From assembly GCA_030696085.1 (NCBI GenBank), contig JAUYNL010000062.1, positions 1 to 64,000 on the forward strand: a DNA stretch of 64,000 nt. Reading direction: 5' to 3'. The position numbers and the translations under genes are program-made. The notes under the pieces are model-generated. The model was not told the DNA's origin, did no database searches, and saw only the letters and a program-made list of their open reading frames with translations. Shown here piece after piece: positions 3,031-31,467 of the stretch. Numbering within the stretch: position 1 is the stretch's first letter; each line of letters starts with the position of its first letter. This stretch comes from Luteolibacter sp. (GTDB lineage Bacteria > Verrucomicrobiota > Verrucomicrobiia > Verrucomicrobiales > Akkermansiaceae).

Positions 3031-3155
3031 AGGGTCCCATGCATTGGGACCCAACGGGGCTCGATTCGTTCAATCATCGCGCCATTTCGCGGGGCTTGCA
3101 TCCGGTGCCAGAGGACGATTCGCAAAATATGCGGACCGCTGGCAATCCCCGGCTT

Positions 3156-3175
3156 CAGGAGCCAAATGGCTCCTG
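3156..3175 (-). terminator. Hairpin downstream of rho
   Basis: A perfect 8-bp stem (CAGGAGCC/GGCTCCTG) with a 4-nt loop sits 18 bp after the rho stop codon. There is no following T-tract, so it may be a 3'-end stabiliser or weak terminator rather than a classical intrinsic terminator. Confidence 0.45.
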
Positions 3176-3193
3176 TGAATCGAAAAACTGGAG

Positions 3194-4975: not shown

Positions 4976-5021
4976 CCGGAGTGTCAGGGAAGAAAATTGG
5001 GTGCGTGGCGCGCGGCGCGGC

Positions 5022-16112: not shown

Positions 16113-17942
16113 ATGCCTTCGCTGAATAGCAACACCACCACCATGGGCCGGCTGATGTCCGGTGCCCGGAGCCTCTGGCGCGCCAACGGAATGCGCGAGG
16201 AGCAATTCGGCAAGCCGATCATCGCCGTCGTCAATTCATTCACCCAGTTCGTCCCCGGCCACACCCACCTGCATGATGTCGGCCAATTCGTCAAAGGCCT
16301 GATCGAAGCGCGCGGGTGTTTCGCCGCGGAGTTCAACACCATCGCCATCGATGATGGCATCGCCATGGGCCACGACGGCATGCTCTATTCGCTGCCCTCG
16401 CGCGAGGTCATCGCCGATAGCGTGGAATACATGGTCAACGCCCACAAGGCGGACGCCATGATCTGCATCAGCAACTGCGACAAGATCACCCCAGGCATGC
16501 TGATGGCCGCGATGCGCCTCAACATCCCGGCGATTTTCGTTTCCGGCGGACCGATGGAAGCCGGCGTGGTCGGCGACCGGAAATACGACCTCGTCGATGC
16601 GATGGTCATGGGCGGCGATCCGGCGGTGGCGGATGATCTGTTAGAGAGTGTCGAGAAAAACGCCTGCCCTACCTGCGGTTGTTGCTCGGGCATGTTCACC
16701 GCGAATTCGATGAACTGCCTCAACGAGGCGTTAGGCCTCGCTCTGCCCGGCAACGGCACCATCGTCGCCACCCACGCCAATCGCCGGAAACTTTTCGAAC
16801 AAGCCGCGGGCCGCATCGTGGACATGGCTTATGCATTTTACCGCGATGGCGATAGCTCCGTGCTGCCGCGCTCGATCGCCACGCGCGGCGCGTTTCAGAA
16901 CGCCATGGCGCTGGATGTGGCGATGGGCGGTTCCACCAATACCGTGCTGCACATTCTCGCGATCGCGCATGAGGCGGGAGTCGAGTTCGGCATGGCGGAC
17001 ATCGATGCGATCTCGCGCAAGGTGCCCTGCATCTGCAAGGTCGCCCCGAGCTCGGACTATCACGTCCAGGATGTGAACCGCGCTGGCGGCATCCTGCGCA
17101 TCCTCGGCGAACTGCAAGCCGCCGGCCTGGTGGATGGCACGGTGAAACGCGCCGACGGCATGACTCTGGCGGAAGCCATCACGCGTTTCGACATCACCGC
17201 CCCGGAACCGGCTACGGAAGCGCGCGAGATCTATCAGAGCGCTCCCGGCGGCGGCCGCAATCTGGTGTTCGCCTCCCAATCCGCCGCCTTCAAGGAACTC
17301 GATGCCGACAAGGCCGCGGGCTGCATCCGCGATGTGGCCCACGCCTACTATCCCGATGGCGGACTCGCCGTTCTAACGGGCAACATCGCCAGCGCCGGAT
17401 GCATCGTCAAAACCGCCGGTGTCGATCCCGCATCGTTCCATTTCAAGGGGCCGGCGCGGGTTTTCGAGTCACAGGACGCCACCTGCGAAGCCATCCTCAA
17501 GGGCCGGATCCAGGCCGGCGACGTGGTGGTGATCCGCTACGAAGGACCGCGCGGCGGACCCGGCATGCAGGAAATGCTTTATCCCACATCCTATCTGAAA
17601 TCCATGGGTCTCGGCAAAGCCTGCGCCCTCATCACCGACGGCCGTTTTTCCGGCGGCACCTCGGGGCTTTCCATCGGCCACGTCTCGCCGGAGGCCGCCG
17701 CGGGCGGGGCCATCGCGCTTGTCAGGGATGGCGACACCATCGAGATCGACATTCCCGGCCGCACGATCCAAGTGCTCGTCAGCGATGAGGAACTCGCCGC
17801 ACGTGCCCAAGCGGAAATAGCAAAGGGCAAGGATGCCTACCGCCCCGTCGGCCGCGAGCGCAAGGTTTCCAACGCGCTCAAGATCTACGCCCGCCATGTG
17901 ACCTCGGCGGACAAGGGCGCCGTGCGCGAGGTGCTTGATTGA
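16113..17942 (+). CDS. ilvD: Dihydroxy-acid dehydratase
   Basis: Dehydrates 2,3-dihydroxy-acids to 2-oxo acids in valine, leucine and isoleucine synthesis; cytoplasmic Fe-S enzyme. 609 residues, close to the 616 of E. coli. Cluster ligands appear in [12 protein letters not shown] and in the [18 protein letters not shown] segment (about 187-204), the latter of the long E. coli-like type. GGSTNTVLH and [20 protein letters not shown] are also present. No other ilv gene is nearby and no leader attenuator is evident in the 73-bp upstream gap. Confidence 0.96.
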
Positions 17943-17995
17943 GCGTGGTTTTCGGATCCGATTCAGATTCCAAACTAGCTCAGAAAACGATGCGG

Positions 17996-19369
17996 TCACA
18001 GGTTGGCAAGCCCGGCATCCGGGGAGAGCGGCAGGCGGAACGCGAACTCGACCCAGTCTGATCCGGTGTCGTTCAGAGTCAGATCGCCGCCGTGAACCCT
18101 CACGAGTTCGCGTGCGATGTTCAGGCCCAGACCGTGACCGGCGACATTTCCGCCAACCGATGCTCCCCGGCGAAAGCGGTCGAAAATGCGCACGCGTTCC
18201 TCATGGGAGATCGCCTCGCCGGAGTTGCCGATTTTGACAAAAACGCCTTGTCGGTCACGGCCTGCTCTCACCCGGATCAAGCCGCCTTCGGGGGTGTATT
18301 TGGCCGCGTTTTCGACGAGATTCTGCAAAACCATCGCTATCAGCCGGCGATCCGCCCGGACCCGCAGGGCAGCCGGAATGTCCGCTTCCTGGCGGACGTT
18401 CCTGTCGGCGCAGAGCACCTCCAGATCATCCAGTGCGCCACGGAGCAGTACAGCCAGGTCAATCACCTCGGCATCCGGCACCATCCGGCCCGCATCGGCC
18501 TGGGCGAGCAGCAAAAGATCATCGATGAGCGAGGTGAGCCTCCGGGTCTGCTGGCGCAAGGTGGCGACTTCGACAGCCTGTGATTCAGTGAGCTCCGTCG
18601 CCCGGGAAAGATGATCGAGTCCCGCACGGAGGATGGCCAGGGGTGTCTTGAGCTGGTGCGAGGCATCCGCGGAGAAACGGGCGGCCACCTGATAGGAACC
18701 CCTCAAGCGGTCGAAACTGCGGTTGAGCACTTCAGTGAGTTTGGCGATTTCATCACGGGCCTCCGGCATCGGAAGGCGTTCGTCCGGGTTGCCGACGTTG
18801 ATGCGCTCCGCCGTCTCACTCAGCTCGGCGAGCGGAGCCGTGGTGCGTCTTGCGAGCCACACGCCGCCGAAGAAGACGACAAGACCGACCGCCGGCAGCG
18901 ATGTTAGAAACCCGACTCCAAGATGCTTCATGAAGCGATGGATCATGTCCACACGCGCGCCGATGCGCACGAGGTAGGAGCCCTCCCGCCACGTTCCTAC
19001 CCGGCAGCGCTTGCCGTGGATCCGTTCGGTGCGCGGTTTCCCGATCGCGGCATCGAGGAGCACTCCCCGCAGATTCCGCGAGCGATACACCACATGCCCC
19101 CCGGGACCTTCGACGATGAGGTAATGTTCGCGGAGCGGAACCGGTATGTGCTCGTGATCCAGCGCCTGCAGTGGATCGGCGGGCGCGTCGCGAAATTTAC
19201 CAAGGTCCCAGACGAGCTCTTCGGCATCCTCCGCCAACTCCTCGTCAAGTTCGGCGATCTGATGGAAATAAAGCGTCACCATCATGACCGCCGCACCCGC
19301 GATGAGCGCCGCCATCGTCAGCAGCGCGGAGTAGATGCCCACCTTGACCTTGAAGGACCAGCGTTTCAT
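17996..19369 (-). CDS. Two-component sensor histidine kinase
   Basis: 457 residues. Helix one (about 8-32), a periplasmic loop to about 150, helix two (about 155-175), then HAMP, HisKA with phospho-acceptor His in SADASHQLKTPLAI (about 241), and HATPase_c with NLVENAAKYTPEGG, GNSGEAI and GHGLGLNIAR. The architecture matches QseC/PmrB-like sensors. The start overlaps the response regulator stop by 4 bp, so the pair is translationally coupled. No stimulus can be deduced. Confidence 0.93.
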   Translation of the reverse strand: MKRWSFKVKVGIYSALLTMAALIAGAAVMMVTLYFHQIAELDEELAEDAEELVWDLGKFRDAPADPLQALDHEHIPVPLREHYLIVEGPGGHVVYRSRNLRGVLLDAAIGKPRTERIHGKRCRVGTWREGSYLVRIGARVDMIHRFMKHLGVGFLTSLPAVGLVVFFGGVWLARRTTAPLAELSETAERINVGNPDERLPMPEARDEIAKLTEVLNRSFDRLRGSYQVAARFSADASHQLKTPLAILRAGLDHLSRATELTESQAVEVATLRQQTRRLTSLIDDLLLLAQADAGRMVPDAEVIDLAVLLRGALDDLEVLCADRNVRQEADIPAALRVRADRRLIAMVLQNLVENAAKYTPEGGLIRVRAGRDRQGVFVKIGNSGEAISHEERVRIFDRFRRGASVGGNVAGHGLGLNIARELVRVHGGDLTLNDTGSDWVEFAFRLPLSPDAGLANL

Positions 19370-20043
19370 GGGGCGGGATTCATGACATAGCCCACGCTGC
19401 GGATGGTGCGGATCACCGAGTCCCCGCCGGGCTGGTCGAGTTTCCGGCGCAGCCGCATGACGAAGATTTCAATGGTGCGCGTGTCATATTCGTGTTCCCT
19501 CTCCCAGATCCGCTCACAGATTTCATCCCGCGAAAAAGTGCGTCCCGGTTCCTTCATGAAAACCTCCAGCACCTCGAACTCGCGTGGCGAAAGCTCGATG
19601 CGCTTGCCACTGCGGCTGACCCGCCGCTTGCCGCTGTCCATGACCAGATCGCCGATTTGAAGAATGTGGTCGGGCACCGCCATCGCGCTACGCCGCCCGA
19701 GCACCTCGACGCGTGCCAGCAACTCCTCCATGGCGAAGGGCTTGGTGAGGTAATCATCCGCACCCGCCTTCAATCCCGCCACGCGGTCACCGACTTCCGA
19801 ACGCGCGGTGAGTATCAGCACGCGCACCGGCAGAGCGCCTTCGCGGATCCGCTGGAGGACCTCCAAGCCGTCGAAACCCGGCAGGTTCACATCCAGCACG
19901 AGCAGATCGCAGTGGCCGGCCGTCACCTCCCGCAGCGCGGACGGCCCGTCTGCCGCGAGTTTCACGCCATGGCCCGCAATCGACAAGGAACGCGCCACCC
20001 GCTCGGCGAGCAACGGTTCATCCTCGGCAAGAACAATATCCAT
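19366..20043 (-). CDS. OmpR/PhoB family response regulator
   Basis: 225 residues. N-terminal receiver domain with acidic pair DE (about 7-8), phospho-acceptor Asp in LLVLDVNLPGFDGLE (about 51) and Lys in LTKPFAMEEL. C-terminal winged helix with ELSPREFEVLEVFMKEPGR and EYDTRTIEIFVMRLRRKL. Acts as a DNA-binding transcription factor paired with the kinase encoded immediately downstream. The divergent neighbour at 20156 (MBL-fold hydrolase) shares its 112-bp promoter region and is a candidate target. Confidence 0.95.
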   Translation of the reverse strand: MDIVLAEDEPLLAERVARSLSIAGHGVKLAADGPSALREVTAGHCDLLVLDVNLPGFDGLEVLQRIREGALPVRVLILTARSEVGDRVAGLKAGADDYLTKPFAMEELLARVEVLGRRSAMAVPDHILQIGDLVMDSGKRRVSRSGKRIELSPREFEVLEVFMKEPGRTFSRDEICERIWEREHEYDTRTIEIFVMRLRRKLDQPGGDSVIRTIRSVGYVMNPAP

Positions 20044-20155
20044 GACACGGATAAGTTTTCACGAATCCCCGGCGCATCAAGCCAATTCGCCGTGGAATCC
20101 CCCGCTTGCAAATAGTGCGCGGCCACCGCTTGATCGCCGCATCCGAGGTCGCCCG

Positions 20156-21121
20156 ATGAATCCGCGTTTCACCAATCCATGGCCCCACCCGCAACACCGG
20201 GTGTTGGATATCCTGCGCTGGAAACTCGGACTCGGCCCCGGCGAGCGGAGCCACCTGCCGGACGCGCCCGATCTTCCCGCCTCGTGGATCGCTCTTGCGC
20301 CGGAACGCATCGCGCTTCCACCGCCGGCCGGCTGGCGCGCGGTGTGGCTCGGGCATGCCTCGTTCCTGTTGCAGGGCTGCGGCGTCTCCCTGCTGATCGA
20401 TCCCGTGTTTTCCGATTTCTGTGCGCCTCTTCCGTTTCCATCGCTCCGGCGGAAAGTGCCGCCGCCCTGCGATCTAACGGATCTGCCGCCGATCGACGCG
20501 GTGCTGCTCACCCATTCCCACTACGACCACCTCGACCTGCCGACCTTGCGGATACTCGGCCCATCCACCCGCCTGTGGGTGCCGGAGGGCCATGCGGCAT
20601 GGCTTCGAAAAAAAGGATTCACCGCAGTGGAGGAAGTGCGTTGGAACGAATCGTTCACGCTTCACCCCCACCTCCGGATCACCGCCACTCCGGCGCAGCA
20701 CTTCACGGCGCGTTCGCTCCATGACCGTGATCGGGCGCACTGGTGCGGCTGGCGCATCGACAGCCCGCAGGGCTCGCTCTGGCACGCCGGCGACAGCGGT
20801 TACTGCCCCGCGTTCCGCGAAATCGGCGAGCGCCATGGCCCGGTGGATCTCGGCATGATCCCGATCGGAGCCTATCAGCCGCGACACATCATGCAGGCGA
20901 TGCACCTGAACCCGGAGGAGGCCGTGCGGGTGTTTCTGGAAACCCGCTGCCGGCACGCGATCGCCATCCACTGGGGCACTTTCCGTCTCACGGACGAGGC
21001 GCTGGGAGAACCGCCGCTGTGGCTGGAAATGGCGCTGCGCGAAAAAAATCTCCCGGCCGGTATTTTCACCGCCGGGAGCGTCGGGGCGGTCCACGAGTTT
21101 GTCGGCGCTTCGACTACTTGA
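20156..21121 (+). CDS. MBL-fold hydrolase (UlaG/NAPE-PLD-like)
   Basis: 321 residues from the ATG at 20156. Metal motif HSHYDH (about 118-123) with further ligands in TPAQHFTAR and HAGDSGYCPAF. The GHASFLLQ and LLIDPVFSDF segments resemble the NAPE-PLD/RomA branch of metallo-beta-lactamase-fold hydrolases, suggesting a phosphodiester or lipid-like substrate; no biochemical assignment is possible. Its 3' end overlaps the convergent gene at 21114 by 8 bp. Cytoplasmic, no signal peptide. Confidence 0.88.
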   Translation: MNPRFTNPWPHPQHRVLDILRWKLGLGPGERSHLPDAPDLPASWIALAPERIALPPPAGWRAVWLGHASFLLQGCGVSLLIDPVFSDFCAPLPFPSLRRKVPPPCDLTDLPPIDAVLLTHSHYDHLDLPTLRILGPSTRLWVPEGHAAWLRKKGFTAVEEVRWNESFTLHPHLRITATPAQHFTARSLHDRDRAHWCGWRIDSPQGSLWHAGDSGYCPAFREIGERHGPVDLGMIPIGAYQPRHIMQAMHLNPEEAVRVFLETRCRHAIAIHWGTFRLTDEALGEPPLWLEMALREKNLPAGIFTAGSVGAVHEFVGASTT

Positions 21122-21608
21122 GGAAATTATCGAGAGATTCATCCCCCGGTTTCCAGAATTGCACGGAGACCACCTTGCCTTCTTCAAGCGCCAGCACCGT
21201 GACCTTGCCGCGCTCCTCCGGAAAACGAGCGATCAGCTTGGCGTCATCGCCGAGGATGATCGTATGGGAGTATTTTTTCATCTTCGGCAGGGCGAACATG
21301 CGGCCGACGCCGGGCATCCCGTGGATATTGGCGAGATAGACAGCCTTCTTCCGGGAGAGGTTTTCCCTTCCCACCCTGGTCAGTACCGCGTTGGCCTTCT
21401 TGCCGGTCTCCATATCATGGCTGATGAGCAGATAGCGGGTTTCCGCAGGTTTGAAGGTGTATGCCTGCTCATGTTGGGTCTTGGATTGGAAGGACTCCAC
21501 GCGGTCGCCCTTCTGATAAGGGGCGGCAAATGCGGAGCCTGCGGTGGCGATAACCGCCGCAAGGGCGATCACGGTACGGGAAACGAGTGTGTGGGTCATG
21601 TTCGTCAT
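21114..21608 (-). CDS. Small secreted protein, YtfJ-like
   Basis: 164 residues with a signal peptide ending near GSAFA (about 28). The mature part carries YLLISHDMETGKKAN, ANIHGMPGVGRMFALPKM and VTVLALEEGKVVSV, a thioredoxin-like layout without a CxxC, resembling periplasmic YtfJ-like proteins. Function unknown. It diverges from the YceI gene across a 92-bp promoter region and converges on the MBL gene. Confidence 0.7.
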   Translation of the reverse strand: MTNMTHTLVSRTVIALAAVIATAGSAFAAPYQKGDRVESFQSKTQHEQAYTFKPAETRYLLISHDMETGKKANAVLTRVGRENLSRKKAVYLANIHGMPGVGRMFALPKMKKYSHTIILGDDAKLIARFPEERGKVTVLALEEGKVVSVQFWKPGDESLDNFLK

Positions 21609-21700
21609 AACCTTACAAACCGTTACACAACTCTCAAGCGAAAGATTCGGCGAAAGGTTGCGGGGCGGCGCTATCGGGGTTAACTTCCCAGCACAACCTC

Positions 21701-22249
21701 ATGAAGAACAAACTATTTATCCTGTCCGGGCTGGGGCTCCTGCTCGCCTGCTCCGCGCGTTCCGCCACCTTGGAAGTCGATCAAGGCCGCAGCCGCATCC
21801 AGGTGGACGCCAAGGCCACCGGCCACGCATTCACCGGCACCCTGCGAAAATTCACCGCGTCCGTCTCCGGAGACCCCGGCTCGCTCGCCCCCACGGCATT
21901 CGGCCTCGGCTGGAACTTCAAGGATCTCGATACCGACGATGAAAAGCGCGACAAGGAGATGATCAAGTGGCTCGGCGGCGGCGATCCGAAGGGATCATTC
22001 AAATTCTTCAAATCCTGGACCGATGCCAAGGGCGGCCACCATGCGCAGGGAGCCCTCACCATCAACGGCGTTTCCAAAACGATCAGCTTTCCCTACACCG
22101 CCAAACAGGACGGCGAATGGATCACGATCAGCGGCACGGCCAAACTCGACTATCAGAATTTCAAACTGCCGATCATCCGCTCGATGGCGGTGATGACCGT
22201 GGATCCCGCACTCGCCGTGCGTTTTCACGTCGTCGGAAAGCTCAAGTAA
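21701..22249 (+). CDS. YceI family polyisoprenoid-binding periplasmic protein
   Basis: 182 residues, signal peptide to about residue 22 (LLACSARSA). The mature protein shows the YceI lipocalin-like barrel pattern: HAFTGTLRKFTA, SFKFFKSWTDAKGG, GALTINGVSKTISFPY and a final VDPALAVRFHVVGKLK. YceI proteins bind long isoprenoids or amphiphiles in the periplasm. It is the first of seven close-set genes; the next makes a polyprenyl diphosphate, consistent with an isoprenoid theme. Confidence 0.88.
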   Translation: MKNKLFILSGLGLLLACSARSATLEVDQGRSRIQVDAKATGHAFTGTLRKFTASVSGDPGSLAPTAFGLGWNFKDLDTDDEKRDKEMIKWLGGGDPKGSFKFFKSWTDAKGGHHAQGALTINGVSKTISFPYTAKQDGEWITISGTAKLDYQNFKLPIIRSMAVMTVDPALAVRFHVVGKLK

Positions 22250-22270
22250 GCCCCCCTTCCCTATCAAAAA

Positions 22271-23197
22271 ATGACACCGGATGCATGGTGGCGGCGCCGC
22301 AGCCGCTGCGCCCACGCCCTCATGGCGGGCAGTTTCTCCCACGGCATGGGCGCGATGGAGCGGGTGGAACCGCGCCTCGCCACCGCGCTTCGCGATGTGC
22401 TCGCCCACCCCGGATCACTCGTCAGGGCCGTGGCCGCGTACCTCGTGGGCATCGAAATGGGCATGACCGAACAAGCGGCGCGCGCCGTCGGCTGCGGCAT
22501 CGAGTATCTCCACACCGCGTCGCTCGTTTTCGACGACCTTCCCGCAATGGACGACGCGCGGACACGCCGCGGAGCGGCCTGCGCCCATGTGATCCACGGC
22601 GAGTCGGTGGCCATGCTCGCCGCGCTCGCCCTGATCAACCGAGGCTACGCCCTGCTCTGGCAGGGCATCCGCAATGCCTCGCCCGCAAACCGCGGGATGG
22701 CGGGCGAATGGGTGGACGCCCGGCTCGGAATCCATGGCGTGATCGGCGGCCAGTCGTATGATCTGAGCGGCTGGCGCAGCGGCCAGAGCGCCGCGGAGGT
22801 GAGCGAAGTGGCGGCACGGAAAACAGCCGACCTGCTCCGTCTCACATTGGTGCTTCCCGCCATCATCGGCCGCGGCACGCCCCGCGAGATTACTTTGCTG
22901 GATCGTCTGGCGGTCTTCCGCGGGCTGGCCTATCAGGCGGCGGACGACATCAAGGACGTGATCGGATCCGGGCTGGAATCCGGCAAGACCTCCGGGAGGG
23001 ACGAGGAGCTCGGACGGCCAAACATCGTCGCCGCCGAGGGACTGCCCGCGGCGATGCACCGTCTCCGCCGCCTCAACGACGCCGCGGAGCGCGTGAAAGC
23101 GGCGCTTCCGGGCGATCCGGAGCGTTGGGGAATGCTGGAGTTGCTCAAGGTGCCCGTCCCGTGCTACGCCGCGCTCCATGAGCCGGCCGCCGTCTGA
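22271..23197 (+). CDS. Polyprenyl diphosphate synthase (FPP/GGPP synthase type)
   Basis: 308 residues, trans-isoprenyl diphosphate synthase. First Asp-rich motif DDLPAMDD (about 92-99) preceded by LHTASLVF, second Asp-rich motif ADDIKD (about 222-227). The DDxxxxD first motif (two-residue insertion) is typical of bacterial FPP/GGPP synthases making C15-C20 chains. The enzyme condenses IPP with allylic diphosphates in the cytoplasm. It lies 21 bp after the YceI gene and 32 bp before an ABC permease, an unusual setting for such a gene. Chain length cannot be told by eye. Confidence 0.9.
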   Translation: MTPDAWWRRRSRCAHALMAGSFSHGMGAMERVEPRLATALRDVLAHPGSLVRAVAAYLVGIEMGMTEQAARAVGCGIEYLHTASLVFDDLPAMDDARTRRGAACAHVIHGESVAMLAALALINRGYALLWQGIRNASPANRGMAGEWVDARLGIHGVIGGQSYDLSGWRSGQSAAEVSEVAARKTADLLRLTLVLPAIIGRGTPREITLLDRLAVFRGLAYQAADDIKDVIGSGLESGKTSGRDEELGRPNIVAAEGLPAAMHRLRRLNDAAERVKAALPGDPERWGMLELLKVPVPCYAALHEPAAV

Positions 23198-23229
23198 GCC
23201 GGACATCAACCTTCATCCCGGAATACCCC

Positions 23230-24342
23230 ATGAGCTTGTGGCGTTTGATTTTCACCAACCTGCGGCGGCACCGCGTGCGCACGGCGGTAGGGGCCACCGG
23301 CATCGCCCTGGGAGTGGCCACCATGTTGAGCGTGGTCGGGCTGTTAGGCGGAGCGGTGAAGATGTTCGAGAGGATCCTGCGCAGCGATGCGGAGATGGTG
23401 GTGTTTGAAAAAAACGTCTCGGACCTGTTTTTCAGCAATGTGGATGTGGCCGTGGCGGAGGAACTGGAAAAACAGCCCTTCGTCAGGGAGGCGCAGCCGG
23501 TGCTTTTCACCATCATCGCCGCGCCCGACCGCCCGGTGGTCACTTGCTTCGGCATCCGCGCCTCGGACGGACGCCTGAAGAAAGGCGAGTGGCTCCAGGG
23601 CTCCGCCGCGGGTTTCACCGACGACGGGCGCAGCCTGGTGCTCGGCGAGCGCTCCGCGGAGTTTCTCAATGCGAAACCCGGCGACACCATCGAGCTCGGC
23701 CAGGGAACCTATCCCGTGGCCGGCGTGGTGCGCATGGAAAACGGCTTTGAAAACGGTGGCGTGTTCATGCCGCTGGCCGCCTGCCAGAAGGCTTTTCACA
23801 AGGATGGCGTCTGCTCGGTGATCACCGTGGCACTGGCGGAGGGCCACGAGTCGTCCGAGGCCAAACAATGGATCGCCGGCAGGCACAAACGGCTCACCGC
23901 CCTGGAGAACGAGGAGTTCAGCCGCAGCTACTCGCAGTTCAAGATCATGAAAACCACCGCCTGGGTCGTCGGCGGATGCGCGTTTTTGTTAGGCGGGCTG
24001 AGCGTGACCAACACGATGATCCTTTCGGTTTTCAGCCGCATCAAGGAGCTGGCCATCGCCAGGGTCTGCGGCTTCTCGCGCAGCCAGGTGGCGCGGATGA
24101 TTTTCGGCGAATCGCTGGTGGTATCCGCCATCGGCACCCTGGCCGGCTGGGGGCTGAGCTCCGGCGGCCTCTGGCTGCTGGCGAAAGTCCCGATGCTGCA
24201 AGGCTACGTCGAGCCGCGCATCGGCTGGCAGGAAGTGGCCGGGGCGATGAGCCTCGCCGCCTTCACCGCCCTGGTCGGCGCTCTCTATCCGGCATGGTAT
24301 GCCGCAAAACTCAAACCTGCGGAGGCACTCCGCTTTGAATGA
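23230..24342 (+). CDS. FtsX/MacB-type ABC transporter permease
   Basis: 370 residues. Helix one near 20-42, a large periplasmic domain (about 45-255), then three C-terminal helices (about 260-285, 305-330, 340-360): the MacB/LolC/FtsX layout. The conserved end ALYPAWYAAKLKPAEALRFE is diagnostic. Members act mechanically on periplasmic or membrane partners or extrude lipoproteins. Stop overlaps the ATPase start by 4 bp. The partner substrate is unknown; neighbours suggest a lipid or isoprenoid. Confidence 0.9.
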   Translation: MSLWRLIFTNLRRHRVRTAVGATGIALGVATMLSVVGLLGGAVKMFERILRSDAEMVVFEKNVSDLFFSNVDVAVAEELEKQPFVREAQPVLFTIIAAPDRPVVTCFGIRASDGRLKKGEWLQGSAAGFTDDGRSLVLGERSAEFLNAKPGDTIELGQGTYPVAGVVRMENGFENGGVFMPLAACQKAFHKDGVCSVITVALAEGHESSEAKQWIAGRHKRLTALENEEFSRSYSQFKIMKTTAWVVGGCAFLLGGLSVTNTMILSVFSRIKELAIARVCGFSRSQVARMIFGESLVVSAIGTLAGWGLSSGGLWLLAKVPMLQGYVEPRIGWQEVAGAMSLAAFTALVGALYPAWYAAKLKPAEALRFE

Positions 24343-25028
24343 TGAAAGGGAATTCCATGGAACAGCAAGTATGGGTGGAAAACGTCTGGAAAAGCTTCGA
24401 CCGAGGACGCATCGAGGTGCTCAAGGGCGTGAGCCTCGGCGTCACCAAGGGCGAGATCATCGCGCTTTGCGGCACCTCGGGATGCGGGAAATCGACGCTG
24501 CTCAATGTGATTTCCGGCCTCGAGGAGGTGGATCGCGGAGACGTGAGGGTTTCCGGATACAATGTGGTCACCGAATCGACGCGCATCGATCTGCTGAGGC
24601 ATCACATCGGTTACGTGTTCCAGTTCCATCACCTGATGTCGGACCTGACGCTCGCCGAGAACTGCCTGGTGCCGCTGATCGCGAGCGGCGGACGCCGTAG
24701 TGATGGCATGGTGCGATTGCACGAACTAGCCGCCGCCACCGGTGTGGAACATCGCCTTGACCGCCGCGTGCGCGAACTTTCCGGCGGCGAACGCCAGCGC
24801 GGCGCGATTGTCCGCTCGTTGATGAACGATCCGGAACTGCTGCTTTGCGATGAACCCACCGGCGCGCTTGACGAACGCAACCGCGAGAAGGTTTTCGATC
24901 TGCTGCTGGACCTCGTCCGCGCGCGCGGACGCACGCTGGTGCTGGCCACCCATGATCCGGATCTGGCGAGTCGCTGCGATCGCACGGTGCGGATGCGCGA
25001 CGGCAGGATTGAAGGAGATTCCAATTGA
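24339..25028 (+). CDS. ABC transporter ATP-binding protein (LolD/MacB type)
   Basis: 229 residues. Walker A CGTSGCGKSTLLN, Q-loop FQFHHLMSDLTLAEN, signature LSGGERQRGAIVRSL, Walker B LLLCDEPTGALD and H-loop ATHDP. The LTLAEN-type Q-loop and absence of other domains place it with the LolD/FtsE/MacB-type ATPases that pair with FtsX-like permeases. Encoded with 4-bp overlap to the permease and a 1-base stop/start overlap with the next gene. Confidence 0.93.
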   Translation: MMKGNSMEQQVWVENVWKSFDRGRIEVLKGVSLGVTKGEIIALCGTSGCGKSTLLNVISGLEEVDRGDVRVSGYNVVTESTRIDLLRHHIGYVFQFHHLMSDLTLAENCLVPLIASGGRRSDGMVRLHELAAATGVEHRLDRRVRELSGGERQRGAIVRSLMNDPELLLCDEPTGALDERNREKVFDLLLDLVRARGRTLVLATHDPDLASRCDRTVRMRDGRIEGDSN

Positions 25029-26260
25029 TGGCGGAAGATTCGACCATGACCGGAACCCCGGCCCTCGCGGTGAGGCATTCACTGGGATGGCTGGTTTTCG
25101 GCAATACCGTGGGGCTCTACCTCGCGCTGCTTTTGATAGAGCCCGGCTTGCAGGCCGGGGCCTGGACATACGGACGATGGATGCCCGTGCATCTGAACGT
25201 GCAGCTCTACGGGTGGACCTCGCTGCCGCTGGTGGCATGGCTGCTCACGATCTATCAGGTGGACCAAAGCCGGCGCTCCGCGTGGGGGGCCGCCGCCGTC
25301 TGGGCGTGGACTGCGGCGCTGGCGGTGGGGGTGTTGCACTGGCTCGGCGGCACCAGCTCCGGAAAACTGTTTCTGGATTGGAAAAGCGGCTCTCTCCAGG
25401 CTTTCGTAGCCGCTCTGGTCATCCTGTGGTGCGTGCTCGCCGCCGCATGGATCGACCGCCGGTCCGTTTGGAGCAGGACGCGCTCCATGGCATCACTCGC
25501 CGGGTTGTTAGGACTGGCGCTGGTTCCCGTCTCGCTGGTGTTCGCCTCCTCGCCCGCGGTGTATCCGCCGATCGACCGGACGACTGGCGGCCCCACGGGA
25601 TCCAGCCTGCAGGGCTCGGCGCTGCTGGTCATCGGCCTGATGCTGCTGCTGCCGCGAATCATCACCGGGCACCCGCGGCATGGCCGCAATCCGGCGGTGT
25701 GGATTTTTTTCGCGGTGTCGTGGCTGGTCTTCGGCGTGACCGAAGCGATGGGTGGCACGCACCGGGACCCGCACCAGATCCTGGCCGTGCTTTTCCTTCT
25801 GCCCTGGGTGTGGCTGTTGCCGCGGGATTGGAAGGGCTTCGACTGGCCTCAGGGTGCCGCCGCCTGGCGCTACGCGATGTTCGGCTGGTGGGGAATGCTG
25901 GTGGTGAGCAGCCTGCTCATGTACCAGGATGGCATCCTCGACCGGATCAAGTTCACCCAGGCGCTGGTGGCTCATTCGCACATGGCGATGGCCGGTTTCA
26001 CCACCTCGTTTTGCGCGCTCCTCATCGTGCTGCTGACGCGGCACCCCATCGGCGGAAAGCTGTCGGTGCCCGCCTGGCACGCATCCGCCCTGATGATGAT
26101 CGCCACGCTTGCGGCGGCTGGCTGGCTGGAGGGAGCGGGGCCGCACTGGATGGCCGATCCGCCCGCGTGGCGGGTCGCGGGATTCGCGCTCCGGGCCGTG
26201 TGCGGCGCGATCATGCTCGCGGCATCGGCGCACTGGCTTTGGAAACATAGATTACCATGA
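25028..26260 (+). CDS. Heme-copper-oxidase subunit I-like (CcoN/NorB-like) membrane protein without an evident Cu-B site
   Basis: 410 residues, about 12 membrane helices. Helix two has HLNVQLYGW (His about 55) and a late helix AHSHMAMAGF (His about 316 and 318), matching the low-spin heme His and the HxH heme pair of CcoN/NorB. The His on helix six and the adjacent His-His pair on helix seven that bind Cu-B or Fe-B are not seen; the only intermediate His (about 215, 218, 245, 249) sit in loop-like segments. The protein is also shorter than CcoN. It may therefore be a di-heme b electron carrier rather than an oxygen reductase. Stop overlaps the next start by 4 bp. Confidence 0.7.
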   Translation: MAEDSTMTGTPALAVRHSLGWLVFGNTVGLYLALLLIEPGLQAGAWTYGRWMPVHLNVQLYGWTSLPLVAWLLTIYQVDQSRRSAWGAAAVWAWTAALAVGVLHWLGGTSSGKLFLDWKSGSLQAFVAALVILWCVLAAAWIDRRSVWSRTRSMASLAGLLGLALVPVSLVFASSPAVYPPIDRTTGGPTGSSLQGSALLVIGLMLLLPRIITGHPRHGRNPAVWIFFAVSWLVFGVTEAMGGTHRDPHQILAVLFLLPWVWLLPRDWKGFDWPQGAAAWRYAMFGWWGMLVVSSLLMYQDGILDRIKFTQALVAHSHMAMAGFTTSFCALLIVLLTRHPIGGKLSVPAWHASALMMIATLAAAGWLEGAGPHWMADPPAWRVAGFALRAVCGAIMLAASAHWLWKHRLP

Positions 26261-26655
26261 ACAAGACCAATATCCTGAAACTCTGGAGCGCGGCCGTCGG
26301 ATCGATGGATGCGGTCACCGGGCTGCTGCTGGTGTTTTCCCCGCTGCTGGCGCTGCGTTTGTTAGGGATCAGCGCTCCGTCCGGGGAGGCGGTGGTTTTC
26401 CTGAGCTGGATCGGCGTGTTCGTGCTTGCGGTGGGGCTGAGTTATGGATTTGCCATGGGCCGTCGCAGCCGTGGTGAAACCGTGTGGATGTTCACTTCGA
26501 TGGCCCGCTTGCTGGTGGCGGCCTTCCTGACGTTCCGGATTCTCGATGGTTCGCTCGCAAAGGCCTGGATGGTGGTGGCGGTCTCGGATGCTTCCGTGGC
26601 GGTGGTGCAGTTGCTAATCCTGCGTGCCGGATGGTGGGAGGAGGTGCCACGTTGA
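26257..26655 (+). CDS. Hypothetical four-helix membrane protein
   Basis: 132 residues, not recognised. Four predicted helices (about 10-32, 45-66, 75-93, 103-122) separated by short basic loops, no Cys or His cluster. It overlaps the genes on both sides by 4 bases (ATGA and TTGA), which ties it to the HCO-like protein and the cytochrome c fusion; it may be a small structural subunit of that complex. Confidence 0.7.
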   Translation: MNKTNILKLWSAAVGSMDAVTGLLLVFSPLLALRLLGISAPSGEAVVFLSWIGVFVLAVGLSYGFAMGRRSRGETVWMFTSMARLLVAAFLTFRILDGSLAKAWMVVAVSDASVAVVQLLILRAGWWEEVPR

Positions 26656-28448
26656 ATGTGCGAGGGGTGCGCGCGTCCGCCACGGTGGCGGCGGTCTATG
26701 GATTCTTCCTGCTCTTCGCGCAATTTGCGTTTGTGGAGTTGATCCGCGCCGCCGGACGCGGGCACACCGAGGAAAAAGTCCTGCTGGGTGTGATGGCGCT
26801 GGCGGGAGTGGCGGCCGGTTTTATCACCGCGTGGCGCGGTGCGCATCCGTCGATGATCCGCAGGGCATTGGTGGCCGCCGCCTTGTCTTCCGCGCTCGCG
26901 CCGATTTCGGGAAACATGCCCGGCGCGCTCGCGGTGGCCGCCCTGACAGGATCGGCGCTCGGGGTTTCCACCGTTGCTCTGGCAGCCCTGCTGCCGGGTT
27001 GGTGCGGGTTGCCATGGGTCGGTCTTGGGACCGGCATCGGCTATGCGGTTTGCAATCTGCCGTTCGTCTTCCAGCAATCTCCTGCCCACCAGTCGTGGAT
27101 CGCGGCAGGTTTGGCAATCATCGGGGCGCTGGTCATGCCGGAATCGGCTGCATGGAAACAGCAGGGAGAAAAACCAAACACTCTCCCCTTCCCTGCCGCA
27201 GTGCTGCTTTTCACGGCGCTGGTCTGGATGGATTCCGCGGCGTTTTTCATCATCCAGCATGCCGCCGACCTCAAATCCGCCACCTGGGGAGCGGGACATC
27301 TTTGGAGGAACGCGGCGCTTCACCTGGTCTTCGCAGTGATTTCCGGACTTTGCCTGCATCGGGGAGCCCGGCGGCTCGTCCCTCTTGCCGCATGGGGCCT
27401 GTTAGCCGTAGCCTCGCTGTGCGTGAACTCGGCGTCCACGCGCGACATCGCCGGCCTTTTCTACCCGGCTGGTGTTTCACTTTACTCGGTGGCGCTGGTG
27501 GCCTGGCCGGGATGGTTGTCCGGTGCGCCGGACTCCAAGTCCGCGGCGTGGAGGGCCGCCTGGCTTTTTGCCGTTGCCGGTTGGTTCGGCTCCGCAAACG
27601 GCATCGGCATGGCGCAGACGCTCCAGCGCGTGCCAGCCGGGTTCATCGCCATTGCAGGCGTGGTCTTGCTGCTTGCCTTGCTCCGATTCAATCGGAGCCA
27701 CATGCGTCCGGCCCTGGCTGTGGCGGCGGTCACGGCCTGCGGCTTGCCGGCCACCAAACAAGCCTCGCCATCACAGGCCACGGCCGCCCAGCGCGGGCGG
27801 ATCATCTATCAGTCCGAAGGATGCATCCACTGCCACTCCCGCTATTCAAGGCCCGGATCGCCTGACGAGTCCATCTGGGGGCCGGCGCCGGACCCGAAGA
27901 CGGTGCTTGCGGAACAACCCGTACTGATCGGCAACCGGCGGCAGGGACCCGACCTCACCAACATCGGTGCGAGGCGTTCCGAAGCCTGGTTGAAGGCTCA
28001 TTTCCTCAATCCAAGCGCTCTCTATCAGGGAAGCGTCATGCCTTCCTACGCGCATCTTTTCGCCGATGGCCGAGGAGATGATCTGGTCCGCTTTCTCAAG
28101 GAATCCGGCATTGAAAGCACCGCACAACTGATGGGAAGCCAGTCCATTTGGAACCCCATCGGTTCCGCTCTGGAATACGACGCCAAGGCGCTGTTTGCAC
28201 GCCACTGCGCCGCCTGCCACGGCGTGGACGGCATGGGCAAAGGGCCGCTAGCCAACCAGTTTCTCATCCCCCCGGCCAATCTGCGGGATGGTCCGTTCAT
28301 CCGAACCCAAGCGGCCGATGATCTGGAAACCGCCATAGCCCGTGTGATCAAATTCGGCGTGATCGGATCGGATATGCCCGGTCACGAAACGCTAACGGAT
28401 GGCGAAATCCTCGCGCTGGCCAGGATGCTGCGCGAATGGCGGCACTGA
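26652..28448 (+). CDS. MFS-like membrane domain fused to CcoO-like and CcoP-like cytochrome c domains
   Basis: 598 residues from TTG at 26652, chosen because GGAGGAGG at 26637-26644 lies 7 nt upstream and the start overlaps the previous stop; GTG at 26658 is an alternative. Residues 1 to about 365 form 10-12 helices resembling a degenerate major-facilitator protein. Then a CcoO-like domain: CIHCHSRY (about 391), QGPDLTNIG and axial Met in MPSYAHLF (about 463). A second heme c domain has CAACHG (about 519) and MPGHETL (about 574). The two c hemes should face the periplasm and could exchange electrons with the HCO-like protein encoded just upstream. The fusion of these parts is unusual. Confidence 0.78.
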   Translation: MNVRGVRASATVAAVYGFFLLFAQFAFVELIRAAGRGHTEEKVLLGVMALAGVAAGFITAWRGAHPSMIRRALVAAALSSALAPISGNMPGALAVAALTGSALGVSTVALAALLPGWCGLPWVGLGTGIGYAVCNLPFVFQQSPAHQSWIAAGLAIIGALVMPESAAWKQQGEKPNTLPFPAAVLLFTALVWMDSAAFFIIQHAADLKSATWGAGHLWRNAALHLVFAVISGLCLHRGARRLVPLAAWGLLAVASLCVNSASTRDIAGLFYPAGVSLYSVALVAWPGWLSGAPDSKSAAWRAAWLFAVAGWFGSANGIGMAQTLQRVPAGFIAIAGVVLLLALLRFNRSHMRPALAVAAVTACGLPATKQASPSQATAAQRGRIIYQSEGCIHCHSRYSRPGSPDESIWGPAPDPKTVLAEQPVLIGNRRQGPDLTNIGARRSEAWLKAHFLNPSALYQGSVMPSYAHLFADGRGDDLVRFLKESGIESTAQLMGSQSIWNPIGSALEYDAKALFARHCAACHGVDGMGKGPLANQFLIPPANLRDGPFIRTQAADDLETAIARVIKFGVIGSDMPGHETLTDGEILALARMLREWRH

Positions 28449-28614
28449 TGCAACGAGCGACATTCACCGTGGTTCCCATACATCGGGCACTCCCGGATCG
28501 GTGAGGCTCCCTCTTCCAGGCCTAAGGGCAATGTCAGGGAGCTCCGCAAAAAAACGGGCGCTCCTCATGCTTGCAATCCTTGCGGCTCCACCATCATCAT
28601 TGGCTCCGGCAACA

Positions 28615-28638
28615 AGGTTTCCGACGAATCGGAAACCT
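28615..28638. promoter_or_regulatory. Perfect inverted repeat upstream of the sugar kinase gene
   Basis: Arms AGGTTTCCGA/TCGGAAACCT of 10 bp with a 4-nt loop, 64 bp before the kinase start, in a 254-bp gap that otherwise shows no gene. It could be an operator for the kinase-aldolase pair or a terminator for the upstream operon; no T-tract follows. Confidence 0.5.
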
Positions 28639-28702
28639 AGATGAATTCCGTAGCCCCCGCGGCTGAAACCGTCCTTTAATTCATTTCATTCCATCACCAC
28701 GC

Positions 28703-30178
28703 ATGGCACAAAAATCATATCTCGCAATGGACCTCGGCGCCGAAAGCGGGCGCGTCATCCTTGGCACGCTCGAAGGCGGACGGCTGACGCTTGAGGAGAT
28801 TCATCGCTTCCCAACCGGAGCCTCACGCATCGGCGGATCGTTGCGATGGAATTTGCTGCGTATTTTCGAGGAGCTGAAGGCGGGACTGAGGAAAGTCGCG
28901 GCTCTGAAAGTGCCTGTTGAAAGCCTGAGCGTCGATTCGTGGGGCGTGGACTATGTGCTCTTCAACACCCGCCAACCGATGCTCTCGCTGCCTTACCACT
29001 ACCGCGACGAGCGCACCGGGCGCACTTTCCCCGCAGCGCTGGAGAAAGCCGGCCGGGAAAAGATCTTTGGCGAGACAGGCATCCAGTTCATGGCCATCAA
29101 TACCCTCTACCACCTCATTGCGGACGTGGAGGAAAACCCGGATGTTCTGGATATCGCCGATCAGTTCCTCAATATCGCGGACTACCTGAACTACCTCTTC
29201 AGCGGTGTCGCCCGCAACGAAGTCAGCACCGCCAGCACGACCCAGATGTACAACCCCGTCACGGGTGGGTGGTCGAAAGCACTCATCGAAACATTCGGTC
29301 TTCCCTCAAGACTATTCCCGAAAATCGTCCCCTCCGGCACACGACTCGGGCCTCTCCAGCCCGAGCTTTGCGCGGAGACAGGGCTTGCCGGAGTGGAGGT
29401 GGTGGCGTCCTGTTCGCACGACACCGGCGCAGCCGTCGCGGCCGTGCCTGCGGATAGCGGCGACGACTGGGCCTATCTTAGTTCCGGAACCTGGTCATTG
29501 ATCGGAGTAGAGCTACCCTCGCCGATCATCCATGCCTCGGCGCGCGAGCTGAATTTCACCAACGAGGCCGGCTACGGCGGGACGACCCGCTTCCTCAAGA
29601 ACATCGTCGGGCTTTGGCTGCTTCAGGAATCCAGAAGGGCATGGGCGTTTGCAGGACGAACGCTCGAATATGCCGAAATCATGGCACTTGCGGAACAAGC
29701 GGAGCCGTTCCGTTCCATCATTGATCCTAACGACGAGCGCTTTGTCCGCCCCGAACACATGCCTGCCGCCATCGCAGGCTATTGTCGCGGGACGGGACAA
29801 CCCGAACCGGAGACTCCCGGTCAGTTCGCACGCTGTATTCTGGAAAGCCTCGCACTGCAGTATCGCCACACACTCACGGATCTTGAGCAGCTCACCGGAC
29901 GTCGCATCACCCGCCTGCACATCGTCGGCGGCGGCAGCCAGAGCGCCTTGCTCAACCAGTTCGCGGCGGATGCCACAGGCCGCACCGTGCTCGCCGGTCC
30001 CGTCGAGGCCACCGCGACAGGCAATGTGCTGATCCAGTCAATCGCGCTCGGCCACTTGCACTCGCTCGCCGAATTGCGCGCAGTCACGAAAAATTCCTTC
30101 ACCATCCAGCAGTTCGAACCGAAGCCAGGCGACGGATGGGAAAATGCCATTGTCCGCTTCGAAACCCTGATTTCATGA
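28703..30178 (+). CDS. rhaB: FGGY sugar kinase, rhamnulokinase-like
   Basis: 491 residues. N-terminal ATPase motif MDLGAESGRVILG, then SVDSWGVDYVLFN and the C-terminal ATP site HIVGGGSQSALLNQFAADATG. The pattern fits L-rhamnulokinase, which phosphorylates L-rhamnulose at O-1. No rhamnose isomerase is present but L-fucose isomerase is, and rhamnulokinases can act on L-fuculose, so the physiological substrate here may be fuculose. The stop overlaps the two-domain aldolase start. Confidence 0.85.
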   Translation: MAQKSYLAMDLGAESGRVILGTLEGGRLTLEEIHRFPTGASRIGGSLRWNLLRIFEELKAGLRKVAALKVPVESLSVDSWGVDYVLFNTRQPMLSLPYHYRDERTGRTFPAALEKAGREKIFGETGIQFMAINTLYHLIADVEENPDVLDIADQFLNIADYLNYLFSGVARNEVSTASTTQMYNPVTGGWSKALIETFGLPSRLFPKIVPSGTRLGPLQPELCAETGLAGVEVVASCSHDTGAAVAAVPADSGDDWAYLSSGTWSLIGVELPSPIIHASARELNFTNEAGYGGTTRFLKNIVGLWLLQESRRAWAFAGRTLEYAEIMALAEQAEPFRSIIDPNDERFVRPEHMPAAIAGYCRGTGQPEPETPGQFARCILESLALQYRHTLTDLEQLTGRRITRLHIVGGGSQSALLNQFAADATGRTVLAGPVEATATGNVLIQSIALGHLHSLAELRAVTKNSFTIQQFEPKPGDGWENAIVRFETLIS

Positions 30179-31467
30179 ACTTCGACCTGCTGCATCCGCG
30201 CGATCAAATCGTCGCGACCATGGAACGAATCTATGGCCATGACATGACCACCACTTCTGGTGGAAATATTTCAGTTCGAGACGAAAACGGCGATGTGTGG
30301 ATCACACCGGCTCGCGTGGACAAGGGAGCCCTTCGCGCCGGTGATATTGTGCGGATCGGCAGGGACGGAACCCGCGATGGCATTCATCCGCCCTCGTCCG
30401 AAGGGCCTTTTCACCTCAGCATCTACAGAGCACGGCCGGATGTGAAGGCCATCATTCATGCGCATCCCGGCGCGCTGGTGAGCTTCAGCATCTGCGGTCA
30501 GGTGCCCGACACACGGCTTTTCCCACAAGCATGGAAGATCTGCGGGGGAGTTGCTTTCGCTCCGTATGCGCTGCCCGGCAGCACCAAGCTCGGTGAGAAC
30601 ATCGCGGAGCAATTTGCAGCAAAGGCAAAGCCAAACTGCGTGCTGATGGAAAACCATGGCATTGTGGTGGGCGGAGGGGATCTCTCCATGGCGTTCGCGC
30701 GGTTCGAGACTCTGGAGTTCACCGCCCAAACCATCCTCGCCGCCAGCCAACTCGGCGAAGTGCGCTACCTCGATGATGCCCAACTCGCACTCGCACCAGT
30801 CACTTCCATCCCGCTTCTCCCGGCGGATCCGCAGGTGCCGACCAGCCGTGAAAAGGAACTGCGCAAGGAAATCTGCGATTTCGTGCACCGCGCCTATGCG
30901 CACCGCCTGATGACGAGCACCTGGGGAAGTTTCTCCGCACGCCTTGAAGCCGATAGCTTCGTGGTCACCCCGACCGATAAGGACCGCAGCACGCTGGGTG
31001 TTGAGGATCTTGTGGTGGTCCGTGATGGCAGATGTGTTCAGGGCCAGCTCCCAAGCCGGGTGGTGGGGCTGCACCGGGCCATCTATCAGGCACATCCCGG
31101 GATCAACGCAGTGGTCAACGCGCTTCCCATCCATGCCACCGCTTTCAGCGTCAGCGCCGCCGCACTCGATACGCGCACCATTCCCGAGAGCTATCTGTTT
31201 TTGAAGGATGTCCCAAAGTTCCCATTTGAAATGCTAATCAACGATGTTCCGGGCATCGCTGCGGCAGTCGGCCCCAAGTCGCCGGTCGCCCTTCTTGGGC
31301 ACAATGGCGCGCTTGTAGCCGGTCGCACGGTGCTTGACGCGTTCGACCGGCTGGAAGTGCTGGAAGCGACCGCCACCGCAATCATCCGGGGACTTTTGCT
31401 CGGGCCGATCACTCCGATGTCCGACGCAATCATCGAGGAGCTTCTGGCCGCTTTCCCATCGGTTTGA
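30175..31467 (+). CDS. Tandem class II aldolase/adducin protein with a degenerate second domain
   Basis: 430 residues from ATG at 30175, overlapping the kinase stop. Domain one (about 1-210) has the family's catalytic Glu in PSSEGPFHL, the Zn ligands HAHP and the third His in MENHGIVVGG. Domain two (about 222-430) repeats the fold but reads SRVVGLH, NALP and LGHNGALVAG at the same places, so the Glu and the His ligands are gone. Domain one could cleave fuculose- or rhamnulose-1-phosphate to DHAP and L-lactaldehyde; domain two may be structural or regulatory. No encapsulation peptide is obvious, so it may act in the cytosol. Confidence 0.85.
   Translation: MNFDLLHPRDQIVATMERIYGHDMTTTSGGNISVRDENGDVWITPARVDKGALRAGDIVRIGRDGTRDGIHPPSSEGPFHLSIYRARPDVKAIIHAHPGALVSFSICGQVPDTRLFPQAWKICGGVAFAPYALPGSTKLGENIAEQFAAKAKPNCVLMENHGIVVGGGDLSMAFARFETLEFTAQTILAASQLGEVRYLDDAQLALAPVTSIPLLPADPQVPTSREKELRKEICDFVHRAYAHRLMTSTWGSFSARLEADSFVVTPTDKDRSTLGVEDLVVVRDGRCVQGQLPSRVVGLHRAIYQAHPGINAVVNALPIHATAFSVSAAALDTRTIPESYLFLKDVPKFPFEMLINDVPGIAAAVGPKSPVALLGHNGALVAGRTVLDAFDRLEVLEATATAIIRGLLLGPITPMSDAIIEELLAAFPSV

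Follow-up and report, generated by a model that had tools for sequence, protein, structure and literature searches.

What could a YceI-family lipocalin, a prenyl synthase, an ABC transporter and an unusual group of redox proteins do together when they are encoded in a single operon? The question is raised by positions 21701–28448 of a 64,000-nucleotide stretch of DNA from Luteolibacter sp. (positions 1 to 64,000 of contig JAUYNL010000062.1), referred to here as the window; the window's own genome (G000, GCA_030696085.1) is a 110-contig assembly. Seven genes, all rightward, lie there in the order yceI (21701–22249), a polyprenyl diphosphate synthase gene (22271–23197), ftsX (23230–24342), lolD (24339–25028), a gene for a membrane protein with the fold of the cbb3 oxidase subunit CcoN (25028–26260), a small gene (26257–26655) and a gene fusing an MFS-fold domain to cytochrome c domains (26652–28448). 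The gene set is real and conserved and, as far as keyword searches of the literature go, undescribed. In our preferred reading, to which we assign a probability of roughly 0.4, the operon would encode an isoprenoid redox shuttle of the envelope, comparable in its working to the LcoA-BcnA system and built from a cbb3 derivative lacking the copper site CuB.

The intergenic gaps are 21 bp (yceI to the prenyl synthase gene) and 32 bp (prenyl synthase gene to ftsX), and the remaining four junctions overlap: ftsX/lolD at 24339, lolD/CcoN-like gene at 25028, CcoN-like gene/small gene at 26257 and small gene/fusion at 26652, where the fusion starts with TTG. Starts were read from the sequence; the overlap of lolD with ftsX holds for the first ATG at 24339, and an alternative start lies at 24357. 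Gene calls came from a home-made script, and the seven family assignments were verified with hidden Markov models or tblastn. No sigma-70-like promoter was found at the operon (0.8 expected by chance), terminator-like sites were at chance level (7 found vs 6.1, standard deviation 2.4, in shuffles), and an Rfam scan of 17900–28750 gave zero matches. A candidate direct-repeat half-site before yceI was rejected as a conserved element: its pattern matched one of 32 upstream stretches (L037 only), some of whose start codons, being assigned by script, may be wrong.

Conservation was examined in 37 loci, the window and 36 from other genomes (L020 and L069 are one locus and were counted once). All seven genes occur in the same order in 25 of the 37, which belong to two families of the window's taxonomic order and one of another order. 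Judged from sequence, the seven-gene operon is real and more than a chance neighbourhood, because the gene order is kept at 40–50% protein identity with flanks that mostly differ, some neighbours recurring. The initial annotation, which had described seven rightward genes with gaps of at most 32 bp and four overlaps and had made conservation of their order beyond close relatives a test, is confirmed in coordinates and junctions, and the order extends beyond close relatives. Three of the loci counted as complete need a caveat: in L034 a contig end truncates the fusion, in L036 (G023) a single stop codon interrupts ftsX, and in L082 the match of the fusion covers only profile positions 3–482 of 588. 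Three loci (L024, L032, and L038) end at contig edges and are consistent with the operon order as far as they reach. The other nine deviate. The small gene is missing from L076 and L085; the prenyl synthase gene is missing from the clusters L075, L084 and L086, of which L084 and L086 also lack the small gene and L086 also YceI. L078 and L079 (genus g53) retain YceI, the prenyl synthase and the CcoN-like protein, plus a cytochrome without the MFS domain. In L081, from another class, ftsX-lolD is missing and the YceI match is weak, and L020, from a Verrucomicrobiaceae metagenome assembly, is a split copy that appears to be the same contig as one in G269 (equal gene content). In L031, an opposite-strand gene call of 1270 residues (~2180–5990) sits between the prenyl synthase gene and ftsX of an otherwise complete operon. 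Apparent fusions of the CcoN-like gene with the MFS-cytochrome gene in L070, L071 and L073 (open frames of 1123–1377 codons) proved to be artefacts in which the small-gene stretch was read in the wrong frame. A profile of the CcoN-like protein matched 26 of 387 genomes of the phylum at 0.001; 20 matches were strong, the window's own genome included, and the other six were weak, partial matches to different COX1-like proteins.

The genes also tend to be present or absent together. In a co-occurrence sample of 59 genomes, the window's own included and relatedness taken as is, uncorrected, the CcoN-like gene was found in 19 (18/37 in the window's genus, 1/22 elsewhere in the order). Orthologues of YceI, the prenyl synthase, FtsX and the NAPE-PLD-like gene next to the operon were present in 18, 18, 19 and 16 of these 19 genomes, respectively, and in 5, 3, 1 and 4 of the 40 genomes without it; the identity floors were at least 45% for the prenyl synthase, 51% for FtsX and 54% for the NAPE-PLD-like protein. 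FtsX was counted in pieces (contig ends) in G012 and G028, and the prenyl synthase gene of G028 holds one stop codon. The sole genome with the CcoN-like gene and without YceI and the prenyl synthase (G024) is 57% complete, and in G007, G011 and G036, which have YceI without the CcoN-like gene, a contig edge lies where the rest of the set would be expected. In G018, FtsX is found only as a 47-residue fragment; at L098 (G018:C358, ~5975–6341), in this genome without the operon, an FtsX fragment (47–56 residues, 64–70% identical) adjoins a NAPE-PLD-like fragment, perhaps as a relic.

Where the operon is broken, parts of it are retained elsewhere in the genome. In G269, it is spread over three contigs, with the metallo-beta-lactamase-fold hydrolase, secreted-type protein, YceI and prenyl synthase on one, FtsX-LolD on another, and the CcoN-like protein, small gene and fusion on the third. 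In G226 and G238, the CcoN-like gene is followed by a cytochrome alone, and a free-standing MFS homologue more than 300 kb away precedes a trio of genes, which encode a sulfatase, a family-less protein and a PAP2 phosphatase; in G179, the MFS homologue is likewise free-standing, ~16 kb from the CcoN-like gene. Tree distances of six genes from 26 loci correlated at 0.88–0.97, with 10–14 of 23 splits common to each tree pair; part of this correlation is shared species history. Taken together, a co-inherited set of seven genes is supported, and very probably the set is one functional module.

The CcoN-like protein missed the Pfam COX1 gathering score (18.9 vs 34.8 bits), and 13 of the 19 members of its alignment match COX1 at E up to 10 (best 4e-8). 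A profile of this alignment matched no PDB chain up to E 10, and the evidence for the fold therefore comes from a predicted model. The AlphaFold2 model (predicted local distance difference test score, pLDDT, 87.8; predicted template modelling score, pTM, 0.88) is closest to CcoN (Foldseek 7.4e-10 to 9g83_t; VIA to 9g6b_A with Z 29.1, 378 residues aligned, root-mean-square deviation 3.9 and 15% identity), with NO reductases next. By hhalign, 96 columns aligned with three CcoN sequences and 351 columns with seven 'degenerate' CcoN-like proteins.

Ligand residues were counted in 36 sequences (the window included, L038 left out) aligned to three CcoN proteins of the phylum; the assignment of each histidine to a heme or to CuB is assumed to be that of CcoN. 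The presumed low-spin heme histidine of transmembrane helix (TM) 2 (H49, numbered from 25046; 25190–25192), the TM7 histidine H239 (25760–25762), which corresponds to the first of the two CcoN CuB histidines there, and H310 and H312 (presumed ligands of the high-spin and low-spin heme, respectively) in the TM10 motif AHSH (25973–25981) are each kept in 36/36. The second TM7 CuB histidine is present in 17/36; the other 19/36 have F, R, W, Y or S there (R in the window). A TM6 CuB histidine is present in 0/36, and the TM6 stretch (GGxxG plus 24 residues) is free of histidine in all 36 until its last, post-helix part. Thus, the low-spin and high-spin heme histidines of the CcoN type are found and its set of three CuB histidines is incomplete; by these residues, the protein appears to retain the two heme sites and to have lost CuB. 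An ordinary cbb3 oxidase was rejected as an identification, and the protein is, as its ligands indicate, no ordinary oxidase, because the TM6 CuB histidine is missing throughout. G000 also encodes two further strong COX1 matches and one degenerate match; the CcoN-like protein is therefore not the genome's only candidate oxidase.

A second kind of CcoN-like protein was observed at G000:C69:28106–29287 (L068), where it scores above the COX1 cut-off and lies ~2 kb from a strong COX1 match, and in L060–L063, L066 and L067. The L066 and L067 proteins, read whole, are without the TM10 H-x-H and TM7 HH motifs.

The fusion protein combines an MFS-fold domain (approximately residues 1–351) with a CcoO-like heme c domain and a CcoP-like cytochrome c. 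Pfam detected FixO (76.2 bits, cut-off 29.6) and Cytochrom_C in the window protein and gave no MFS match, and a free-standing MFS relative matched MFS_1 at 2e-7, below the cut-off. In the predicted model (pLDDT 77.8, pTM 0.60), residues 1–351 adopt an MFS fold (VIA Z 28.5, 334 residues aligned). In the profile, positions 372–466 correspond to CcoO chains (best match 7.6e-27), and the end hits other cytochromes c as well as CcoP. Both heme c motifs, CIHCH (27822–27836; C391, C394, and H395) and CAACH (28206–28220; C519, C522, and H523), are invariant in these residues in the 19 rows of alignment A2. The small gene between the CcoN-like gene and the fusion encodes a membrane protein (alignment A3) for which Pfam and NCBIfam scans gave no match.

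The remaining four genes concern lipids by family. The YceI protein (Pfam YceI 3.8e-12, 47.2 bits vs a cut-off of 23.7) has a start that resembles a secretion signal by eye, and the best PDB match of its profile is 5ixh (2.4e-15), given as BcnA in the excerpted text of PMC9113575. The prenyl synthase (polyprenyl_synt, 107.8 bits) is of the short-chain type, closest in sequence to farnesyl diphosphate (FPP) and geranylgeranyl diphosphate (GGPP) synthases. Both Asp-rich motifs were read in the window protein; the script found both in 28 of the 29 cluster copies elsewhere and did not find the first in L081. The family (PF00348) is present in 30/30 genomes tested, and each of the 18 genomes with a cluster copy (the split copy of G269 included) has at least one further copy at E 1e-10, 16 of them at least two. 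The cluster enzyme is a diverged copy, scoring 107–132 bits vs 190–253 for most others and 130–145 for a few. A housekeeping role was rejected for it in view of the other copies in all 18 genomes; the three genomes without a cluster copy (those of L075, L084 and L086) have just two prenyl synthases each. The ABC permease is of the FtsX/LolC/MacB type (Pfam MacB_PCD 9.1e-17, FtsX 9e-16) and reached 75.5 bits against NCBIfam LolCE (cut-off 362.45); the ATPase (Pfam ABC_tran) is LolD-like and reached 207.2 bits against NCBIfam LolD (cut-off 307.75). The pair is thus of LolC/D type, and the cluster has no adaptor gene.

Set against the initial annotation, the polyprenyl synthase holds and turns out to be an extra, diverged paralogue, and the redox part is recovered as a CcoN fold with CcoO- and CcoP-like cytochromes. 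The 'HCO-like' protein is indeed a CcoN homologue, although one missing the TM6 CuB ligand. The 'ABC exporter' survives as an FtsX-LolD pair, but an adaptor gene is wanting and export is something we infer; the MFS part of the 'MFS/di-heme cytochrome c fusion' stands by its fold, not by a Pfam match.

The system seems wider than the seven genes first delimited. Upstream of yceI, a rightward gene (20156–21121, start as called by script) encodes a metallo-beta-lactamase-fold hydrolase (Lactamase_B_2, 4e-47) homologous to NAPE-PLD, which matches the NAPE-PLD chain 4qn9_A at 1.3e-65 over residues 3–302 of 321 and has the HxHxDH motif as HSHYDH. Among the 36 loci from other genomes, 14 have a homologue (L096, the split copy of G269, counted). 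Divergent from yceI on the reverse strand (21114–21608) is a gene for a family-less protein with a start resembling a secretion signal by eye (alignment A4), with no Pfam match and no PDB match under E 0.4; 16 of these 36 loci have a homologue (L096 and a truncated copy counted), which in L081 and L082 lies elsewhere in the stretch. Also on the reverse strand are a sensor histidine kinase of heavy-metal (CopS/CzcS) type, below the NCBIfam cut-off (17996–19369), and an OmpR/PhoB-type response regulator (19366–20043), with homologues in L070 that are 59% and 68% identical, respectively. We regard all four as associated, and the two-component pair as non-core. A kinase-regulator pair was also seen in a similar place in L102 (from open reading frames, similarity unmeasured). 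In 7 of 12 loci of family f9, a different two-component pair immediately follows the operon, and in the same family a sulfatase with PAP2, as the trio noted above or as a pair, stands directly upstream of yceI in four loci other than G226 and G238 (4/12). The f9 sulfatase-family proteins are nearest to NCBIfam LtaS and phosphoglycerol transferase, far below cut-off, and the best NCBIfam match of PAP2 is lipid A phosphatase, also below cut-off. One contig of G036 carries a sulfatase, PAP2, a kinase-regulator pair, a NAPE-PLD-like gene and YceI.

Among known systems, the closest in logic is LcoA-BcnA. According to the excerpts of PMC9113575, the B. cenocepacia YceI lipocalin BcnA and the cytochrome b561 LcoA protect against lipid peroxyl radicals, bcnA is linked to the cytochrome b561 gene, mutants show raised lipid peroxidation, and LcoA is proposed possibly to re-reduce a quinone held by BcnA. 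The coupling of yceI to cytochrome b561, invoked initially as an isoprenoid-redox precedent, is thus published as lipid-peroxide detoxification. What the window system has in common with it is a YceI lipocalin whose operon also encodes a membrane heme protein, and the envelope setting. No linked cytochrome b561 was found among the operon genes and scanned neighbours, the part of the genome that was searched; the partner in the window is instead the CcoN-fold protein without the TM6 CuB ligand together with the MFS-cytochrome c fusion, and an extra prenyl synthase and a LolC/D-type ABC pair are added. By analogy, the window system is best seen as working like a YceI/heme-protein redox pair and not as an LcoA-BcnA member, because the linked b561 is missing. 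With cbb3 oxidases (CcoN/CcoO/CcoP) it shares the CcoN fold, the low-spin and high-spin heme ligands and the CcoO- and CcoP-like heme c domains, and it differs in the losses at TM6 and TM7, in the fusion of these heme c domains to an MFS fold and in the additional small membrane protein; since the three CuB histidines are not all there, it is by its residues not a cbb3 oxidase in the strict sense. Like LolCDE and MacB, it has an FtsX-type permease and a LolD-type ATPase. It differs from them in its single permease gene (vs LolC and LolE), its scores below the LolCE and LolD cut-offs, the lack of a LolA- or MacA-like gene among the seven and the YceI lipocalin alongside. The YceI/X158-cytochrome proteins of polysaccharide-degrading bacteria, as excerpted from PMC10154616, also join YceI-type and cytochrome domains, but as multidomain secretome proteins, where the window has separate genes accompanied by those for a membrane complex and an ABC pair. 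A keyword search of the open-access literature retrieved no paper on an MFS-cytochrome c fusion or on the gene set, in line with the initial statement that no described system with this set was known to its author.

The envelope isoprenoid redox shuttle is favoured because a lipocalin, a NAPE-PLD homologue, an extra prenyl synthase and a Lol-like pump come together with a CuB-less cbb3 derivative in the place of b561. It builds on the observed gene set, conservation, folds, ligand residues and extra paralogue. In such a shuttle, the prenyl synthase, whose motifs are seen, would supply a short prenyl chain; the FtsX-LolD pair, by its family, would lift the finished prenyl lipid or quinone out of the inner membrane; and the YceI lipocalin, also by its family, would ferry it across the periplasm. 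The CcoN-fold protein and the CcoO/CcoP-like hemes might then pass electrons to or from the lipid, recharging it instead of reducing O2, a reaction suggested by the heme ligands and the TM6 CuB loss read from the sequence. Going by adjacency, the NAPE-PLD homologue might clear damaged, N-modified phosphatidylethanolamine, and the two-component systems might tune the gene set; the excerpted text of PMC12214272 describes cleavage by NAPE-PLD of phosphatidylethanolamine modified by peroxidation aldehydes. We infer the substrate, the direction of electron flow, the transport and the physiological role. If the shuttle is real, it shows a scaffold for oxygen reduction that gave up its copper centre and, in company with a transporter-cytochrome fusion, was put to new use on a lipid; a single operon then offers YceI lipocalins candidates both for their loading (FtsX-LolD) and for their recharging; the redox partner of the YceI lipocalin is left to further study in the excerpts of PMC9113575.

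Several observations weigh against the shuttle. Its MFS domain is without an assigned role, and to our knowledge the ligand, product and redox partner of the system are unknown. The YceI–BcnA match is distant, YceI stands without the CcoN-like gene in G010 and G034, where the remaining genes are absent, and YceI barrels have been found with several isoprenoids and also with bound antibiotics (excerpts of PMC9113575); the link to lipid peroxides is an analogy with two papers. Three clusters have no prenyl synthase, several f9 loci have no small gene, and the genomes of L078 and L079 have no ftsX homologue at E 1e-15, with LolD missing from their clusters. NAPE-PLD-like genes are common in the order (54/59 genomes at 1e-5, 20/59 at ≥54% identity), and a close homologue of the window's two-component pair lies by the operon only in L070. 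The initial idea of a system around a periplasmic isoprenoid or quinone is partly supported: it has the co-inherited set, the extra synthase, the redox part and the published YceI/cytochrome b561 precedent in its favour, and has against it the clusters without a synthase and the g53 loci without ftsX.

These points leave room for other explanations. The retention of H310 in 36/36 despite the TM6 CuB loss is more than an electron wire would need, for which the low-spin pair suffices, and together with the TM7 histidines (one in 36/36, two in 17/36), acidic residues nearby in most rows and the lipid-related neighbourhood, it could mean that the high-spin heme is itself catalytic, in a new CuB-less heme-copper-superfamily enzyme whose reaction in the membrane would be the reduction of lipid hydroperoxides or of some other small oxidant. 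We consider this unlikely: the replacement of the second TM7 histidine in 19/36 means that a metal site is not conserved there, H310 could be structural, and no activity is known. A broader proposal, which we regard as doubtful, is a new heme-copper class that has discarded CuB, kept the high-spin heme, joined an MFS-cytochrome c fusion and acts on a lipid and not on O2 or NO, for example by reducing lipid hydroperoxides or recharging a YceI-held isoprenoid, so that a respiratory-oxidase scaffold would serve membrane repair, aided by a dedicated isoprenoid synthase and a Lol-like pump. A divergent terminal oxidase or NO reductase using another metal would fit the CcoN/NorB fold and the partly kept TM7 histidines, but is very improbable given the TM6 histidine missing from all 36 sequences and the other COX1 proteins in the genome.

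Other rivals place the weight outside the heme protein. The FtsX-LolD type, the YceI carrier and the cytochromes c would also suit a Lol-like route by which a prenyl lipid or quinone is exported to the outer membrane or the exterior and supports electron transfer outside the cell or in the periplasm, not defence; the excerpted text of PMC10154616 describes proposed electron donors of lytic polysaccharide monooxygenases in which cytochrome domains are found together with YceI-like domains with ubiquinone-8. Such export seems improbable, as no core gene resembles an outer-membrane cytochrome or porin in Pfam or NCBIfam, and L078 and L079 dispense with the ABC pair yet keep YceI, the prenyl synthase, the CcoN-like protein and a cytochrome c. 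The sulfatase-family and PAP2 genes by yceI in four f9 loci and by the moved MFS gene in two more, the likeness of PAP2 to lipid A phosphatase, the CopS/CzcS-type kinases (all below cut-off) and the grouping on the G036 contig point to a regulon that would remodel the envelope against metals or cationic peptides and give the redox genes a secondary role. Its probability is similarly low: the stable part consists of the CcoN-like gene, the fusion and YceI-prenyl synthase, and the sulfatase is unsupported as a co-occurring part in the window's genus (≥56% identity in 6/18 genomes with the CcoN-like gene and 6/19 without). A fortuitous gene order without joint function, which some genomes retaining only YceI or YceI-prenyl synthase would favour, is scarcely credible in the face of an order kept over different flanks, parts retained after break-up and co-occurrence.

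Some further genes were observed near copies of the operon. Upstream of the split CcoN-like–small gene–fusion copy in L020 (5504–8277) are a type III polyketide synthase-like gene, a gene for a FAD oxidoreductase that weakly matches the geranylgeranyl-reductase superfamily, and a third gene for which Pfam gave no match. A quinone pathway composed of this polyketide synthase and reductase was considered and dropped: the copy is split, and the genes are absent from the gene clustering of the other loci, no aimed search having been made. In L029 (1250–3255), and with the same families in L030, genes for DXP reductoisomerase and a CdsA-type cytidylyltransferase lie directly downstream of the operon; the former is an isoprenoid-pathway neighbour, possibly by chance. 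In the window itself, the operon is followed at 28703–31467 by a rhamnulokinase-like gene and then a gene with two class II aldolase stretches.

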